From positions 1,550,001 through 1,614,000 of the forward strand of contig CP047423.1 of the NCBI GenBank assembly GCA_014058405.1: 64,000 nt of DNA, in the 5' to 3' direction. The DNA is from Candidatus Nitrospira kreftii (lineage in GTDB: Bacteria; Nitrospirota; Nitrospiria; Nitrospirales; Nitrospiraceae). Under the pieces are notes generated by a model that made no database searches, had not been told where the DNA came from, and saw only the letters and a program-made list of their open reading frames with translations. Position numbers and translations under genes: made by a program. Below, one piece after another: positions 38,350 to 64,000 of this stretch; position 1 is the first letter of the stretch, and each line of letters opens with the position of its first letter.

Positions 38350-39741
38350 ATGCAGGCACGCGTTCTCATCGTCGACGACGATCCCGATATTCTGACATCA
38401 CTCACCAAACGCTTGACGTGGATGGGGCATGATGTGCTCACGGCTGAGGACGGTGAACAGGCGCTGAGACTCGTTGCTGAGGATCAGCCTGATCTGATGC
38501 TGCTCGACATCGAACTGCCGGGTCTCAGCGGATTGGACATCCTCAAACGCCTGGCCGAAAAATGTTCGAACGGTATGACACACACTCTTCCGGAAGTGAT
38601 CGTTATTACGGCGTTCGGAACGATCGGTCGGGCGGTGGAAGCCATACGGTTGGGTGCGTGTGAGTTCCTCACGAAACCGTTCGAACCTGACCACCTCTCG
38701 ATCGTGATCGAAAAGGCGATGGCACAGGCGGCCATTACACGTCAGATCGGTCTACTCCAAGCGGAAGTGCAAGGACGGTATGAGTGTATTGTGGGACCCA
38801 GTCAGCGTATGGAGCAGCTCCTTGAGACGGCACGGCGTGCGGCCGCCTCGTCAGCTACAGTTCTGTTGCTAGGTGAAACGGGGACCGGCAAGGAGGTGAT
38901 GGCACGCGCGCTGCACCGGTGGAGTCCACGCGCAGGGAAGCCCTTCGTGGTTGTGAACTGCGCGGCCTTGCCGGAGAGCTTACTCGAAAACGAGTTGTTC
39001 GGCCATGAAAAAGGCGCGTACACAGGAGCTGTGACGCGAGAGCCTGGGAAGATTGAGGCGGCGGCGGGTGGTACGGTGTTTCTCGATGAGATCGGTGATA
39101 TGCCGGCTGGGCTCCAGACCCGGCTCCTCCGTGTGTTACAGGATCAGGAGTTTTATCGTGTCGGCGGCAATCGACCGATTCGCACCGATGTGCGCTTTGT
39201 GGCGGCGACGAACAAGGATCTTAAGGACGCGATTGAGAAGGGTCTGTTCCGAGAGGATCTCTACTATCGCCTCAATGTAATTTCTCTGACTCTTCCGCCA
39301 TTACGAAAGCGGAGGGAGGATATCCCTGCGTTGGTAGACTATTTTATCCACCGCCAGAGCGCTGCCTTGGGCCGTCGTGCTTTCAGGGTGAGTCACGATG
39401 CACTAAAAATAATTCTTGAGTACTACTGGCCTGGAAACGTGCGCGAGTTGGAAAATGTATTGTCTCGGGCCACCGTACTTTGTCCCGATGACTGCATCGA
39501 ACCTGAACAGCTCGGGATTAAGGCCCAGCGGAAATTGCCGTTCGAGGCGGATGTATCGGAGGAGTCCAGCCTGAATTACCATGCTGTGATGGAGGTCTAC
39601 AGCCGAAGGATCCTCGAAGAAGCGCTGCGCCGAGCAGGATGGAATCAAACGAAGGCAGCCGAGTTACTCGGTCTGCAACGAACTTACCTCACCAGACTCA
39701 TCAAACAGCGAGGCGTATCGACGAAGCCATCTTTTATGTAG
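38350..39741 (+). CDS. NtrC-family sigma-54 response regulator (module 1)
   Basis: The 463-residue protein has a receiver ([10 protein letters not shown], phospho-Asp in MLLDIELPGLSG, Lys in LTKPFEP), an AAA+ domain (Walker A GETGTGKE about 176, sigma-54 loop GAYTGA about 223, Walker B VFLDEIGD) and a Fis-type helix-turn-helix at the end ([17 protein letters not shown]). It activates sigma-54 promoters. AGGGGAA precedes the ATG. The convergent neighbour is its probable kinase (39802-41598). A close paralogue lies at 59800-61236. Confidence 0.93.
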   Translation: MQARVLIVDDDPDILTSLTKRLTWMGHDVLTAEDGEQALRLVAEDQPDLMLLDIELPGLSGLDILKRLAEKCSNGMTHTLPEVIVITAFGTIGRAVEAIRLGACEFLTKPFEPDHLSIVIEKAMAQAAITRQIGLLQAEVQGRYECIVGPSQRMEQLLETARRAAASSATVLLLGETGTGKEVMARALHRWSPRAGKPFVVVNCAALPESLLENELFGHEKGAYTGAVTREPGKIEAAAGGTVFLDEIGDMPAGLQTRLLRVLQDQEFYRVGGNRPIRTDVRFVAATNKDLKDAIEKGLFREDLYYRLNVISLTLPPLRKRREDIPALVDYFIHRQSAALGRRAFRVSHDALKIILEYYWPGNVRELENVLSRATVLCPDDCIEPEQLGIKAQRKLPFEADVSEESSLNYHAVMEVYSRRILEEALRRAGWNQTKAAELLGLQRTYLTRLIKQRGVSTKPSFM

Positions 39742-58053: not shown

Positions 58054-58657
58054 GTCGGTCAACGAGATCGTTCTTGCTACTCGCAACCCGGATAAGGGAC
58101 GAGAGCTTGGGGCCCTACTCGGAGGGATCGGCATACGTATCCGAACGTTGAAAGACTTTCCGACCGCACCAGAGGTGGAGGAAGACGGAACGACTTGTGA
58201 AGCGAACGCGATAAAAAAAGCGAGGGAGATTGCCAGGGCCACGAGAATTCCTGCACTTGCCGATGATACAGGACTAGAAGTCGATGCACTGGAGGGTCGA
58301 CCAGGCGTCTATGCCGCACGCTATGCGGGGGAACATGCCACCTACGAGGATAATTGTCGGAAGCTACTTTTGGAGCTCGCGGGCGTTCCCCCCGTGAACC
58401 GGAAGGCAAGATTCCTGACGGTTGCCGCGATTGCATTTCCTAGTGGCGATGTTCACGTCACACAGGGTATTCTAGAAGGAGTGATCACAGAACAGCCGAT
58501 TGGAGAGCGCGGATTCGGGTATGATCCGGTGTTTTTTGTGCCTGAATTCAACAAGACGCTGGCGCAGTTGACGATTGAAGAAAAGAATCGTACGAGTCAC
58601 CGTGCGAAGGCGTTTACACAAATGTGTGCGTGGCTAAAAGAATATCCAGTAGCCTAA
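58040..58657 (+). CDS. rdgB: XTP/dITP pyrophosphatase (RdgB/HAM1)
   Basis: The enzyme removes non-canonical purine nucleotides. The 205-residue product has [45 protein letters not shown], the [11 protein letters not shown] block and TSHRAKA at the end, all typical. The GTG start lies within the end of rph. Confidence 0.94.
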
Positions 58658-58729
58658 GGGCTATCACGCGCATCTCTGCGGACCTATGCAAAGAAACGGA
58701 CGCACACTTCCAGGTAGCATTCGACAAGT

Positions 58730-58808
<79 letters not shown>

Positions 58809-58863
58809 CCGCACTTCGTGCGTACCGCCGGCTATTCATCGCTTTATCGCAACTGGCGCCGGC

Positions 58864-58964
58864 GGATAAAACCCACCAGTAATCTTACTCTTTCCCAACA
58901 CCAAGCTTGCTCGACCCGGAACCTAGAAATTGAGGCGACGGGATAAAACCCACGAGTGATCTTA
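58864..58964. repeat. Pair of 24-bp direct repeats
   Basis: GGATAAAACCCACCAGTAAT (continuing CTTA) at 58864-58887 and the same with two changes at 58941-58964. They are 77 bases apart and start 58 bases after tRNA-Pro. Confidence 0.7.
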
Positions 58965-59175
58965 ATTTATGAGCGCATGCGTGGCACAGACTATTATTGG
59001 TGGATTGTAAAGCGGTACTCCCTAGCAAAATTGGACGAGGATGATTCGAGTTCGTGCTTGAGCTGTTCGATGCGAGCCGGAGGGGAGGGCCCACTCATCC
59101 CGGCTCGCATCCAGATCCATTCCTCACGACGAAAACCTCTTTGGTCAGAGATCAAAGCCGCACGCATCACCACGA

Positions 59176-59268
59176 TTACTCGCGCTCAGGCCGAAACGTC
59201 CCATACATGAGGAACAGCGCACCGATCACCAGCACTACAATGTTCAACACCATCAACAGCAGTATCAT
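59176..59268 (-). CDS. 30-residue membrane microprotein
   Basis: The minus strand has a strong ribosome site (AAAGGGGGTGAG) 5 bases before ATG and a 30-codon frame. The product starts MILLLMVLNIVVLVIGALFL, with a short cytoplasmic-type tail ending RPERE. It is one membrane helix with positive residues at the end. In size and ending it resembles KdpF-like or respiratory small subunits, but no kdp or oxidase gene is near. A 7-codon frame (59288) overlaps its start by an ATGA. Confidence 0.6.
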   Translation of the reverse strand: MILLLMVLNIVVLVIGALFLMYGTFRPERE

Positions 59269-59799
59269 CGCCTCTCACCCCCTTTCATGAAGCGTTCGTC
59301 GCAATGCTGCGCCGTGCAAGATTGCGACAAACCTAATTCTCACGCGTCACGCCTTGCGCATAAACATCGTCTACATCATCACTGCAAAATTATCGCGCCC
59401 GAGATCGTCAACATGGGCCATATCATCACTCATCATATCCATACCCATTCTGTCTGTGTCTCCATCGTGGTTCATTCACGTGGAGCACGAGTGGTATGCT
59501 CGAAATCCGACGATAAAATCCGAGTTCTAGGTAAAACCGCTCTGCATCGAGGATCCTCCAGCCTTTCTTCATGACAAGTACTGTGCATGTCTTATGCCCC
59601 ACACGATCAAAATCTAACTCGCGGTATCTTCAGCGCCTACGCAGATGCACGCATAGCGTGATGGCTTTTCCCCTGAATCAGGATGGATTCCAGGTGGATC
59701 AAATTGGATGCGGGTAAGTGGAAACGGTCAGTTGATCTGCGGCTGTTCTGGAAGGGCGAACTAGGAGATGAGAACCACTTCAGAATGCCGCCCACTCGT

Positions 59800-61236
59800 T
59801 CAGTCTGAATTAGCAGGTGGTTTCGCTGAAATCTGCTTCTGCCTGAGCAGCTTTGTCAGGTAAGTCCGTTGCAGGCCCAATTCGGCTGCCGCCTTCGTTT
59901 GGTTCCATGCATTCCGACGTAAGGCGGTCTCGATCAGCTTCTGGCTATAGGCATCCATGCTCTTATGATAGGAGAATAAGAATATGTCCGACTGGGGTTC
60001 CTGACTGGGCGGGGATGCGGAGGTCCAAGGAGTGAGTGAAAGGTGCTCGGGTCCGATCGTGTCTCCGGGACATAAAACCAGGGCGCGGGTGAGCACGTTC
60101 TCCAACTCACGGACATTGCCCGGCCAAGTATACGCTTGCAGCGCGTCCAGTGCAGAGTCACTGAGGACGCAGTGTTTGTTCAGTCCAAATTTACCTGGTT
60201 GAGTGAGAAAGTGCTCTGCGAGGGCAGGAAGGTCATCCAGTCGTTCGCGCAGAGGTGGCAGCTTGATGGTAATCACCGCAAGGCGGAAATACAGATCCTC
60301 TCGAAATGTGCCTTGACGAATCGCCCGTTGTAGATCCTTGTTGGTCGCTGCGATAAACCGAACATCGGCTCGGACCTCCTGCGTTCCACCGACCCGATAG
60401 AACGTCCGGTCGTTGAGCACCCGTAGGAGATGACTTTGCATGGTCAGTGGCATATCTCCGATTTCGTCGAGAAACAACGTGCCTCCCTCGGCGATCTCGA
60501 TCTTGCCGGACTCCCGCTTGGTGGCTCCAGTATAGGCCCCTTTTTCGTGACCAAACAGCTCGTTCTCCAGTAAGTTCTCTGGAAAGGCCGCGCAATTGAC
60601 GGCGATGAAAGGTCGAGCAGAACGAGGGCTCCATCGATGAATGGCCCGTGCGACCACTTCCTTACCGGTACCAGTTTCGCCAAGCAACAAGACGGTGACA
60701 GCAGAGGCCGCCGCCTGTTTGGCCATGGCTAGTTGTGCGCTCATCTGCTTGTTGGTCGTGATGGCAGGCTCGAAGTGCTCATCGACCTCCTTACGGAGCG
60801 TGGCGACGTGGCGATGCAGGGTGACGGTGTCCAGCGCTTTCTTGATCACCACCGTCAGATGGTCGGAGGTAAACGGTTTCGGCACAAAGTCGAAGGCGCC
60901 GAGTTGCATGGCTTGCACCGCGCGTTCGATTGTCCCATAGGCAGTGAGCATCACAATGAGGGGGGTTGTATAGGTTGCAGAACTCTGGGCTGCGTCTTGG
61001 TCCAGTGAGTCTGGGCGAGCGGATCTCTCGCCCACCTGCTTTAGTACGTCCAGACCTGAAAACAGCGGAAGTTCAAGATCCAATAGGACAAGATCGGGCT
61101 CTTCTTCCTGAATCAAGCGGAGGGCATCCTTCCCATTCGTGGCAGTCAGCGGTTCATGCCCCATAAAACTGACACGATTCTGCAAGCTGAGAAGGATATC
61201 GGGGTCGTCATCGACAATCAGAATTTTTGCTCGCAT
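59800..61236 (-). CDS. NtrC-family sigma-54 response regulator (module 2)
   Basis: The 478-residue protein has receiver ([14 protein letters not shown], phospho-Asp in [12 protein letters not shown], Lys in VPKPF), AAA+ domain ([22 protein letters not shown]) and Fis-type helix-turn-helix ([20 protein letters not shown]). The last 45 residues are close to those of the module 1 regulator, so the two may recognise similar enhancer sites. Its gene follows that of the kinase at 61252 after 15 bases. Confidence 0.93.
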
Positions 61237-61251
61237 AAAGTCCTCATCCTT

Positions 61252-63591
61252 TCAAGAGATACGTTGCTCCCCAGCTTCCGGGACTTTGAAAGTCAGTTCC
61301 TCCTGCGATGCGGAAATGGGAAGGGTAAAATAAAACCGTGAACCGGCTTGTGGCTGGCTCTCCACCCATATCCGGCCACGGTGCATGGTGACAAGCGTCT
61401 TAGTGATCCAAAGGCCTAGTTGAGCGCCTTGTGACGTGGGCATAGCAGACGGGACCTTGGAGAACTCTTCAAAAATGTTCGGGAGGTGAGCCACATCGAT
61501 CCCACAACCAGTATCAGCCACACAAGTCTGCACGAAGCCTGATTGCGATACGGAAGTTTCAATAGTTACCTGTCCGCCGGAGGGTGTGAACTTGATGGCG
61601 TTGCCGATGAGATTCACAAAAATCTGTTCCAATTTGTCGCGATCGCCTTGAACGGGTGGAAGTGACTCAACCGATGCCACGATCAGGGATACATTCTTCT
61701 CTGACGCAACCATCTGTAAGCCGTCGGCAGCAGTTGTGGCGATTTGATGGATACAGATGTTCTCTAAACGCAGCTGGATCCGTTTGGTGTCCAGCCCCGA
61801 CCAGTCAAGCAATTGAGCGATAATCCTGCTCAATCGTGCGACGTTATGTTGAACACGTGTGAGGTAGGTTCGTTGCAGTTCGGTCAATGGACCGGTAACA
61901 CCGTCAAGCATGTTTTCGGCGAAGCTTCGAATGGCCGTCATCGGGGTTCGCAATTCGTGTGAGACGACGGAGAGAAACGTCGATCGACGCCGGTCATGCT
62001 CTTGGAGTTGAGCATTGGCACAGGACAACTCTTCGGTTCGTTGCTCGATGCGTTCTTCTAAATGCTGAGTGAGTTCGGCAAGCTCAGAGTAGGCCTTGGC
62101 ATTGTCGATAGCAGCCGCAACGTGACCGGCAATTGTGAGTAGAATGTGGAGATCATCCTCGTTGCATGGGTGTGGCCCTCTGTCCGCCCCCAGATACCCC
62201 AGAACCTTGGCATGGCTTTGGAGTGGTACAGCAACAAAGGACTGAACCCCCGAGCGGCGCATTAAGTCGAGCACTGGTTGTTGTATCCGATGAGCAACGG
62301 TTCCAAGATCATGGATCAGTAAGGGTTTGCCAAGAATGACAAGCTCAGCCGTCATGCTGTCCTTGGTGATGGGTATTTCGAAACGGCGGCTTGCCTCCTG
62401 GATATCGGGAGGAAATCCCACACTTTGAGCGATAACGACACTATTCCGTTCAGAATTTTTGAGAAAGACCACCATTCTGGAAAAGCCCAGATTCTCAGTC
62501 AGTAACCAGAGCACCGAGTCGAGAAGCTGGTTCATATCAAACATATTTGCACTCGCAACTGCAGTGCTGACTTTGTGTGCAGTCGTCAGCTGCTTGATCT
62601 GCCTTCTGATCGTTTCGAGGTTCAAGCTGATCGCCTGATTCCGCTCATGCAGAGATTGCGTCATCACATTGAAAGCTTGGGTGAGCTGGCCTACTTCATC
62701 ACTCGTGGAGGCAGTAAGCGGAACCGGTGCCTCATGTCCATCTGCGAGTTGCCGAGCTGCACCGGCCAGACTCCGCAGCGGTGTCGTAATGCGAGAGGTG
62801 AGCAGGTGCGCACTGAGAATGCCTGCGGCGATGATGAGCAACGTCAAAAGCGCGACATTGCGGATAATAATCAGCAAGGCCCCTTTAGCCTGTGCATCGG
62901 TTAGCCCGATGCGGACCACACCAACTACTGACGAGTTGGTGGTTGGGGATGAGGGACCTCTCTTTTCTTCTTCGAGCTCGTCCGATAGTTGGGACGGGTG
63001 AGCCGTATCCCTGATGACCGGCATCGCAAAGTCGAACAGGGTTTCTTTCCGAACCAAAAAAGGAAGGAGCCAGTCTGACGATTCATCTTGCGGGATCAAT
63101 TCCCGTTTAGACGAGAGTACGAATCTGGTGATGACCGGAGCAGTCAGGGGAGCATGGAGTAGCGACTCGGAAACGCTATCGTCTGGGTAGATCGGTTGCT
63201 GGGTGGTTTTTGGTGATCCACCGGGCATTCTCCTCGTGCGCTTGCTCTGTTGATCCAGGATACGCCCGTCAGAAGCCGTGATCACCAGATAGACGACACG
63301 GTCGATCGCCATGAGACTGTGCATGAACTGGCCAAGCGTTTCCCGATCTTCCAAGACAATCCCACCGATTCGAAAATGGTCGTTCTGTACTGTATTGGTG
63401 AGGAGGATCGTGCCTAGTTCTTGGAGATTCTCTGCCATAGCCCTGCGTCTCGTTTCGATGAAATACCAGCTTAATGACGAACAAGTCACGATAAGAATGA
63501 TGCTGAACAACAAGACAAACTTCAACCGAAGCCCAAAAAACCTTGTGATGGAGTGTGAGCGAAGGTCTCGGTTCATGCGTTCAGTGTCCAT
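61252..63591 (-). CDS. HAMP-GAF sensor histidine kinase (module 2)
   Basis: The 779-residue kinase has a membrane helix near 25-45 (FVLLFSIILIVTCSSLSWYF), a periplasmic region of about 200 residues, a second helix (IIRNVALLTLLIIAAGILSA), HAMP, a GAF domain (about 370-510), HisKA with SHELRTPMTA and HATPase_c (NLIGNAIKF, DTGCGI). It differs from the module 1 kinase mainly by the added GAF domain. The start could be 15 bases later (MNRDLRSH). It is flanked by a binding-protein gene and an NtrC gene in the same direction. Confidence 0.92.
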   Translation of the reverse strand: MDTERMNRDLRSHSITRFFGLRLKFVLLFSIILIVTCSSLSWYFIETRRRAMAENLQELGTILLTNTVQNDHFRIGGIVLEDRETLGQFMHSLMAIDRVVYLVITASDGRILDQQSKRTRRMPGGSPKTTQQPIYPDDSVSESLLHAPLTAPVITRFVLSSKRELIPQDESSDWLLPFLVRKETLFDFAMPVIRDTAHPSQLSDELEEEKRGPSSPTTNSSVVGVVRIGLTDAQAKGALLIIIRNVALLTLLIIAAGILSAHLLTSRITTPLRSLAGAARQLADGHEAPVPLTASTSDEVGQLTQAFNVMTQSLHERNQAISLNLETIRRQIKQLTTAHKVSTAVASANMFDMNQLLDSVLWLLTENLGFSRMVVFLKNSERNSVVIAQSVGFPPDIQEASRRFEIPITKDSMTAELVILGKPLLIHDLGTVAHRIQQPVLDLMRRSGVQSFVAVPLQSHAKVLGYLGADRGPHPCNEDDLHILLTIAGHVAAAIDNAKAYSELAELTQHLEERIEQRTEELSCANAQLQEHDRRRSTFLSVVSHELRTPMTAIRSFAENMLDGVTGPLTELQRTYLTRVQHNVARLSRIIAQLLDWSGLDTKRIQLRLENICIHQIATTAADGLQMVASEKNVSLIVASVESLPPVQGDRDKLEQIFVNLIGNAIKFTPSGGQVTIETSVSQSGFVQTCVADTGCGIDVAHLPNIFEEFSKVPSAMPTSQGAQLGLWITKTLVTMHRGRIWVESQPQAGSRFYFTLPISASQEELTFKVPEAGEQRIS

Positions 63592-63603
63592 CGATCGATC
63601 TGC

Positions 63604-64000
63604 TCAATATGTATCATCGATCAGGCTATCCAGTTCCTTGGGAATCGCGATCTCCAAATAGCGCACCGTCTTCTGATTCACCGAAATACTGACTCGTTGA
63701 ACGCTAATCGGCTTCGACGGGAATGATTTCTCACCATCCAAAATGCGTTTCGCAAGGAGACCAGTTTCCCGGCCGATTTCGCTGTGGCGAATAGACAAAC
63801 TGGCCAGCGCACCCAGGCGCGTAAACTCTGAGGAAAAGCCGATGACAGGGATCTGTTTAGCCAGTGCGGATTCGATGAGAAAGCGAACCGACTCGTCTGT
63901 CAGCACCGTCGAGTCTGGGATTAGCCACAAGGCCTCCGACGAGGCAAGAAGCGATCGTAGTTGTTGGGAAAATTCTTTTTCGTTCTCAACAGGGAAGCCT
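63604..64000 (-). CDS. Periplasmic ABC-type substrate-binding protein (module 2), cut by the window edge
   Basis: The frame is open to the right edge, so the N-terminus and signal lie outside. The 131 visible residues match the C-terminal half of the module 1 binding protein in pattern (LIPDSTVLTDESVRFLIESA, IPVIGFSSEFTRLGALASL, then IGRETGLLAKRIL). It lies 12 bases before the kinase gene in the operon. Confidence 0.8.
   Translation of the reverse strand, partial: GFPVENEKEFSQQLRSLLASSEALWLIPDSTVLTDESVRFLIESALAKQIPVIGFSSEFTRLGALASLSIRHSEIGRETGLLAKRILDGEKSFPSKPISVQRVSISVNQKTVRYLEIAIPKELDSLIDDTY

Follow-up and report, generated by a model that had tools for sequence, protein, structure and literature searches.

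The stretch of DNA considered here, hereafter referred to as the window, spans 64,000 nucleotides of Candidatus Nitrospira kreftii and contains, in a gap of about 1 kb between a tRNA-Pro gene (58730-58803) and a regulator gene (59800-61236), an open frame of only 30 codons. Such a short frame raises the question of whether it is a gene at all and, if so, what its product would do and what would switch it on. In the first-pass annotation, this frame at 59176-59268 was viewed as a membrane microprotein with one helix, preceded by a strong ribosome site and a clean ATG, lying in a 1-kb region without other genes and possibly coupled in translation to a 7-codon frame overlapping its start. The coordinates are exact and the frame is open in the window, on the minus strand. 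As for the surrounding region, no other intact gene was recognised in it, but it is far from empty as it contains a broken gene (ORF1), a promoter and an activator site. The strand, ORF1, the sigma-54-like promoter, the tandem activator site and the adjoining kinase/activator pair had all been missed. The features referred to throughout are as follows.

59069..59112, minus strand: GC-rich, terminator-like hairpin with no T tract, downstream of ORF2
59176..59268 (stop codon included), minus strand: ORF2, putative 30-aa single-helix membrane microprotein (open frame, homologues and helix prediction)
59265..59288, minus strand: 7-codon frame MKGGERR overlapping the ORF2 start, not conserved
59275..59285, minus strand: ribosome site AAAGGGGGTGA, read from the sequence, with a 6-nt gap to the ATG of ORF2
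59371..59436, minus strand: ORF1 remnant, frameshifted, with a stop after 21 codons
59585..59598, minus strand: sigma-54-like promoter core GG-N10-GC, the window copy fitting 8 of 12 consensus positions by eye
59677..59709, minus strand: tandem candidate activator site ATC-N6-GAT-N9-ATC-N6-GAT, from a spacing-relaxed scan
59800..61236, minus strand: NtrC-type response regulator with receiver, sigma-54 AAA+ and Fis-type HTH domains (Pfam)
61252..63591, minus strand: sensor histidine kinase with HAMP, GAF, HisKA and HATPase domains (Pfam)
63604..64000, running past the window end, minus strand: ABC_sub_bind-type protein (PF04392, E 1.1e-30, read in L179), upstream of the kinase gene

Read from 59268 to 59176 on the minus strand, ORF2 translates as MILLLMVLNIVVLVIGALFLMYGTFRPERE*. 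The strong ribosome site and the ATG are indeed present, and comparable purine-rich sites precede most ORF2 homologues. A single helix is likewise predicted, residues 2-25 forming one helix in an AlphaFold2 model (mean pLDDT 85.5). When the microproteins were compared with Pfam, NCBIfam and PHROGs, the best E-values were 0.25, 0.043 and 0.05, respectively, the sole Pfam match at E<=10 being Tetraspanin (E 0.25), and PADLOC returned no match. The 7-codon frame (MKGGERR) also exists where it had been reported; among 21 ORF2 loci, 8 show an ATG frame of 6-7 codons that extends to the start, 6 only a longer and different one, and 7 none. Translational coupling through this frame was therefore rejected, the frame not being conserved.

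The check proposed at the outset, namely conservation in Nitrospira genomes, gave ORF2 homologues, with open frames of about 25-31 residues, in 24 of the 79 genomes of the genus, where they likewise follow this regulator gene. This count depends on how the homologues were sought: across the 79 genomes a protein search returned 15 intact homologues and a profile search 18 at E<=1.1e-4, while a local profile search matched 21 of 25 loci, weakly in G020, G030 and G052 (scores 10.6-19.7); the figure of 24 further includes G077, found by reading, as well as G064 and G065, found with a wider profile, ORF2 having been read in G064 and being only a profile match in G065. Among 395 Nitrospirota genomes of 169 genera, all 17 matches to the ORF2 profile fell within the single genus Nitrospira. 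The distribution inside the genus is patchy, the small genes being absent behind many copies of the regulator. For 21 ORF2 sequences, mean pS is 0.300 and mean pN 0.206 (dN/dS 0.63), with pN<pS in 159 of 196 pairs; the substitution pattern thus leans moderately towards synonymous changes, which is supportive of a coding role, not strong proof of it. An indel test comparing gaps in multiples of three with all others (96 vs 69 in ORF1, 83 vs 85 in ORF2 and 162 vs 767 in the leader) was not counted as coding support, because the frames compared had been chosen as open ones and the aligner introduces compensating gaps. With its conserved frame, ORF2 looks like a real gene of the window, and we infer that it is expressed as a genuine inner-membrane protein spanning the membrane once.

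In relatives, ORF2 mostly comes second in an operon of two genes. The leading gene, ORF1, appears in the alignment of relatives as a protein of about 29 residues with one helix, beginning M[ML]SDEM[AT]MLTISG..., and is intact in 22 of the 79 genus genomes. It is under clear purifying selection (dN/dS 0.30 over 22 sequences, pN<pS in 210 of 223 pairs). Its matches among the 395 Nitrospirota genomes fell in 1 of the 169 genera; one 8-residue ORF1 pattern, searched in a collection of 84,980 species, gave 13 loci, i.e., 12 in Nitrospira sp. and 1 in a Nitrospiraceae bacterium, and a search of plasmids for ORF1 gave no match. As regards the broken copy in the window, a sequencing error was rejected since the same one-base deletion is present in the separate assembly G021. 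ORF2 is intact despite a broken ORF1 in the window and G021 and, by eye, also in G058 and G064; conversely, G063, G051 and G053 keep ORF1 copies with no recognised ORF2. A longer leader frame at 59426-59602 was set aside, its reading frame shifting between relatives (by eye).

Upstream of the small genes, the GG-N10-GC core occupies one and the same alignment position in all 25 loci. Agreement with the full sigma-54 consensus is moderate, at 7-9 of 12 positions for the three ORF1/ORF2 loci that were scored; the window's genome has one copy of rpoN. The tandem site was sought in the same 25 loci with spacers of 8-12 allowed, and both halves are exact, with a spacer of 9-11, in 22 of them, one half being exact in the other 3. 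It lies about 76-79 bp above the promoter core in most loci and occurred once in 16000 shuffled sequences.

The regulator gene lies directly upstream of the small genes in all 24 relatives compared, and in 22 of the 24 it is preceded by a kinase at least 57% identical, the exceptions being G033, whose contig starts at the regulator, and G058, where the kinase match reaches only 36%. Downstream, tRNA-Pro is found in 17 of 24 relatives and RdgB in 15 of 24; five contigs end too soon, and tRNA-Pro was not found within 4.6 kb in G005 nor within 9.9 kb in G016, so the far side of the locus is not always kept. The model of the kinase sensor domain was too poor for use (mean pLDDT 51.8). Regulator homologues at E<=1e-150, paralogues included, occur in 55 of the 79 genus genomes. 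The window itself holds a second NtrC-type regulator at 38350-39732 on the plus strand, which shares about 55-56% identity with that at 59800. ORF2 is probably switched on by the adjoining sensor system; binding of its regulator to the tandem site is suggested by position, and a paralogue could take its place.

The sensor pair and the small genes seem to have had different histories. In 100-base blocks, the window and G021 are 93-98% identical from 59800 to about 58900, a figure that drops to 64-84% within the regulator gene. The regulator tree places the window with G008 and G058 in a clade of 14 rows (100/97) and G021 in another of 22 rows (100/99). The tree thus disagrees with the nearest relative of the small-gene region, with a sharp mosaic boundary at 59800, the regulator stop codon. 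Recombination has probably exchanged the sensor pair as far as this stop codon and left the small-gene region in place.

What follows the regulator varies across the genus. In G075 (L144) and G031 (L146), transposase-like frames (by eye) lie directly behind it, where relatives have the small genes. In G064 (L155) and G065 (L157), a sigma-54-like core comes next after the regulator, and then the gene of a 660-aa protein that matches Lactonase beta-propeller; the promoter before this gene fails the tandem-site pattern even with spacers of 8-12, and in G064 a second site and core then precede an ORF1 remnant and an intact ORF2. Of note, two 24-nt repeats, GGATAAAACCCAC..., lie 77 bp apart downstream of tRNA-Pro in the window (58864-58887 and 58941-58964), and a 13-mer of these repeats also occurs in the loci of some relatives.

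Other small genes occupy the same place or resemble those described above. In G009, G036 and G076, the regulator is followed by a similar site and core and then by ORF3 (MRSELTILALW...), which is interrupted by stop codons in G004 and G006, and in G063, G051 and G053 three such genes stand one after another, namely ORF1', an ORF3-like gene and ORF1. ORF1, ORF1' and ORF3 align with a common pattern, the ORF1 and ORF3 types being only 21-32% identical, and they probably, though not provably, share an ancestor. With a joint profile, 31 of the 79 genus genomes gave a match, and its further loci proved to be MFGD... proteins, mostly of 44-60 residues, which form a second group of small single-helix proteins (L230-L247); their own profile matched 13 of 395 genomes at E<=1e-12, all in this genus, and the window's genome carries one (G000:C1:3363573-3363710, minus strand, L242). 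Among the 17 MFGD... loci inspected, a sigma-54-like core matching 10 or more of the 12 positions is present in 13, and the tandem site, even with relaxed spacing, in only 5.

The combination of site and promoter extends beyond these loci. Defined strictly as an exact tandem site with a spacer of 10, followed within 60-90 bp by GG-N10-GC, the pattern is present in 50 of 79 genus genomes, about 18 being expected from base composition, with 149 matches in total and two or more in 37 genomes. This is a clear excess over chance, even if many of the sites are doubtful when taken singly and the promoter core is poor in several matches. A reversed-pattern control gave no match in the 79 genomes and was too lenient, because it is built of TAG/CTA, which amount to 0.6% here vs 2.2% for ATC/GAT. 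In 720 kb of DNA enriched for sites, the true spacing gave 34 matches vs 0-5 for each of 13 altered spacings or orders; the control with 5 matches, ATC-N6-GAT-N5-ATC-N6-GAT, has 3 copies in the window itself. The genome of the window itself has one exact copy of the strict site pattern (1.03 expected) and 19 copies with one mismatch, with no clear excess, and the window's tandem site, given its 9-base spacer, misfits it by 2 mismatches at best; the single pattern match in this genome precedes the gene of a von Willebrand-domain protein. Across the genus, the sites (L195-L229) precede varied genes; those behind good sites include one for a DUF2278 protein, and DUF2235-like proteins recur (by eye). 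The common site thus predicts a broader sigma-54 regulon in Nitrospira.

From the conserved frame, the promoter core, the activator site and the adjoining regulator, which are all observed, a scheme can be proposed in which the neighbouring kinase would sense an envelope signal and phosphorylate the NtrC-type regulator, which would bind the tandem ATC-N6-GAT site and open the sigma-54 promoter. The ORF1-ORF2 operon would then be made in a burst, both products would insert in the inner membrane as single helices, and the ORF2 helix would modulate a membrane partner by helix-helix contact; in the window, the gene of its companion ORF1 has decayed and ORF2 is retained. With moderate confidence, ORF2 is thus seen as a signal-induced membrane microprotein, the survivor of an ORF1-ORF2 pair, modulating an inner-membrane partner. 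The partner would most likely be, at a guess, the kinase itself, in a feedback, or another signal-regulated inner-membrane complex. Counting against this reading are the only moderately low dN/dS of ORF2 (0.63), its DNA conservation, which does not exceed that of the leader, its patchy distribution, the chance-level count of the strict site pattern in the window's own genome and the loss of ORF1 in the window, which ORF2 could follow.

This last point, taken to its end, would make the window ORF2 an open remnant on its way out, functionless since ORF1 broke, as two of the three codon differences separating it from its nearest relative, G021, change the residue. Such an outcome is unlikely, given that ORF2 remains intact in all four genomes where ORF1 is broken (window, G021, G058 and G064) and that the window keeps the promoter core and both activator half-sites. 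The broken copies could otherwise be read as the repeatedly selected loss of membrane-damaging peptides, be they a toxin-like output or a type I toxin: ORF1 and ORF2 are very short and hydrophobic, and besides the four broken ORF1 copies, two of them judged by eye, ORF3 is broken in G004 and G006. A consensus scan of 58600-59900, which can miss a promoter, found no sigma-70-like one on either strand, hence no sign of an antisense antitoxin; with an inducible sigma-54-like promoter where a toxin would have its antidote, nothing matched in PADLOC and the clear purifying selection on ORF1, a toxin is unlikely as well, slightly more so than a remnant.

The conserved unit might also act mainly as an RNA, either a leader or a small RNA, with the short frames incidental to it. 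At the DNA level, ORF2 is no better conserved than the non-coding leader, the mean pairwise identity between relatives being 0.847 for ORF1, 0.797 for the leader and 0.786 for ORF2, and the downstream hairpin, recognised by eye in 12 of the 15 relatives aligned, counting the window, folds better than shuffled sequences (-24.5 kcal/mol for 59056-59110, z -2.7). On the other side, the sequence surrounding the start of ORF2 folds no better than shuffled DNA (z -1.0), an Rfam search, which can miss an antisense RNA, gave the tRNA as its single match, open frames persist in 22 genomes for ORF1 and in 24 for ORF2 despite differing lengths, and the dN/dS of ORF1 is 0.30. An RNA appears, by a small margin, the least probable of these alternatives, and the signal-induced membrane microprotein is retained as the preferred reading of ORF2.

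As such, one short frame has grown into a testable gene system, in which a promoter, an activator site and a candidate sensor accompany two families of microproteins, and this in a genus of environmental importance that is difficult to cultivate. More tentatively, and with real doubt, Nitrospira may possess its own class of signal-induced membrane microproteins, composed of the ORF1/ORF1'/ORF3/MFGD... group and the separate ORF2 family, which would serve as exchangeable outputs behind genus-expanded NtrC-type two-component systems with a common tandem ATC-N6-GAT site. Working in pairs or arrays, they would regulate the sensor or an energy-converting membrane complex through helix-helix contacts. 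A keyword search of open-licence papers found no account of microproteins of this kind in Nitrospira; work may have been missed, most subscription journals lying outside its scope.

Among known systems, very small membrane-enzyme subunits such as KdpF are proteins of about 30 residues with one helix, and the tail of the microprotein resembles KdpF, judging by eye. The present case differs in that the KdpF family was not matched in Pfam at E<=10 and that no transport or respiratory genes occur among the conserved neighbours tested. A modulator role is favoured for ORF1 and ORF2. MgrB of the PhoQ/PhoP system of Escherichia coli inhibits its kinase and requires its membrane helix to do so (PMC8404706). 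Compared by description only, ORF2 would share with it the character of a small single-helix membrane protein within a two-component regulon, since we infer from site and position that ORF2 belongs to the regulon of the kinase itself; MgrB differs by its 47 residues, and in the case of ORF2 the promoter is sigma-54-like and contact with the kinase is only proposed. In the PspG/PspF regulon, membrane effectors of a membrane-stress response are switched on by an activator (PMC2763126), PspF, which acts with sigma-54; the likeness is again one of description, the activator in the window being a two-component regulator with its kinase. The window regulator falls below the cut-off of the PrsR family TIGR02915, with 402.7 bits against 502.6, and the targets here are tiny membrane proteins, where PrsK/PrsR controls PEP-CTERM genes. 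In other respects the PrsK/PrsR regulon offers a parallel (PMC1569441), with a kinase and an NtrC-type regulator acting through a two-part motif, i.e., an activator site followed by a sigma-54 core, placed before many genes.
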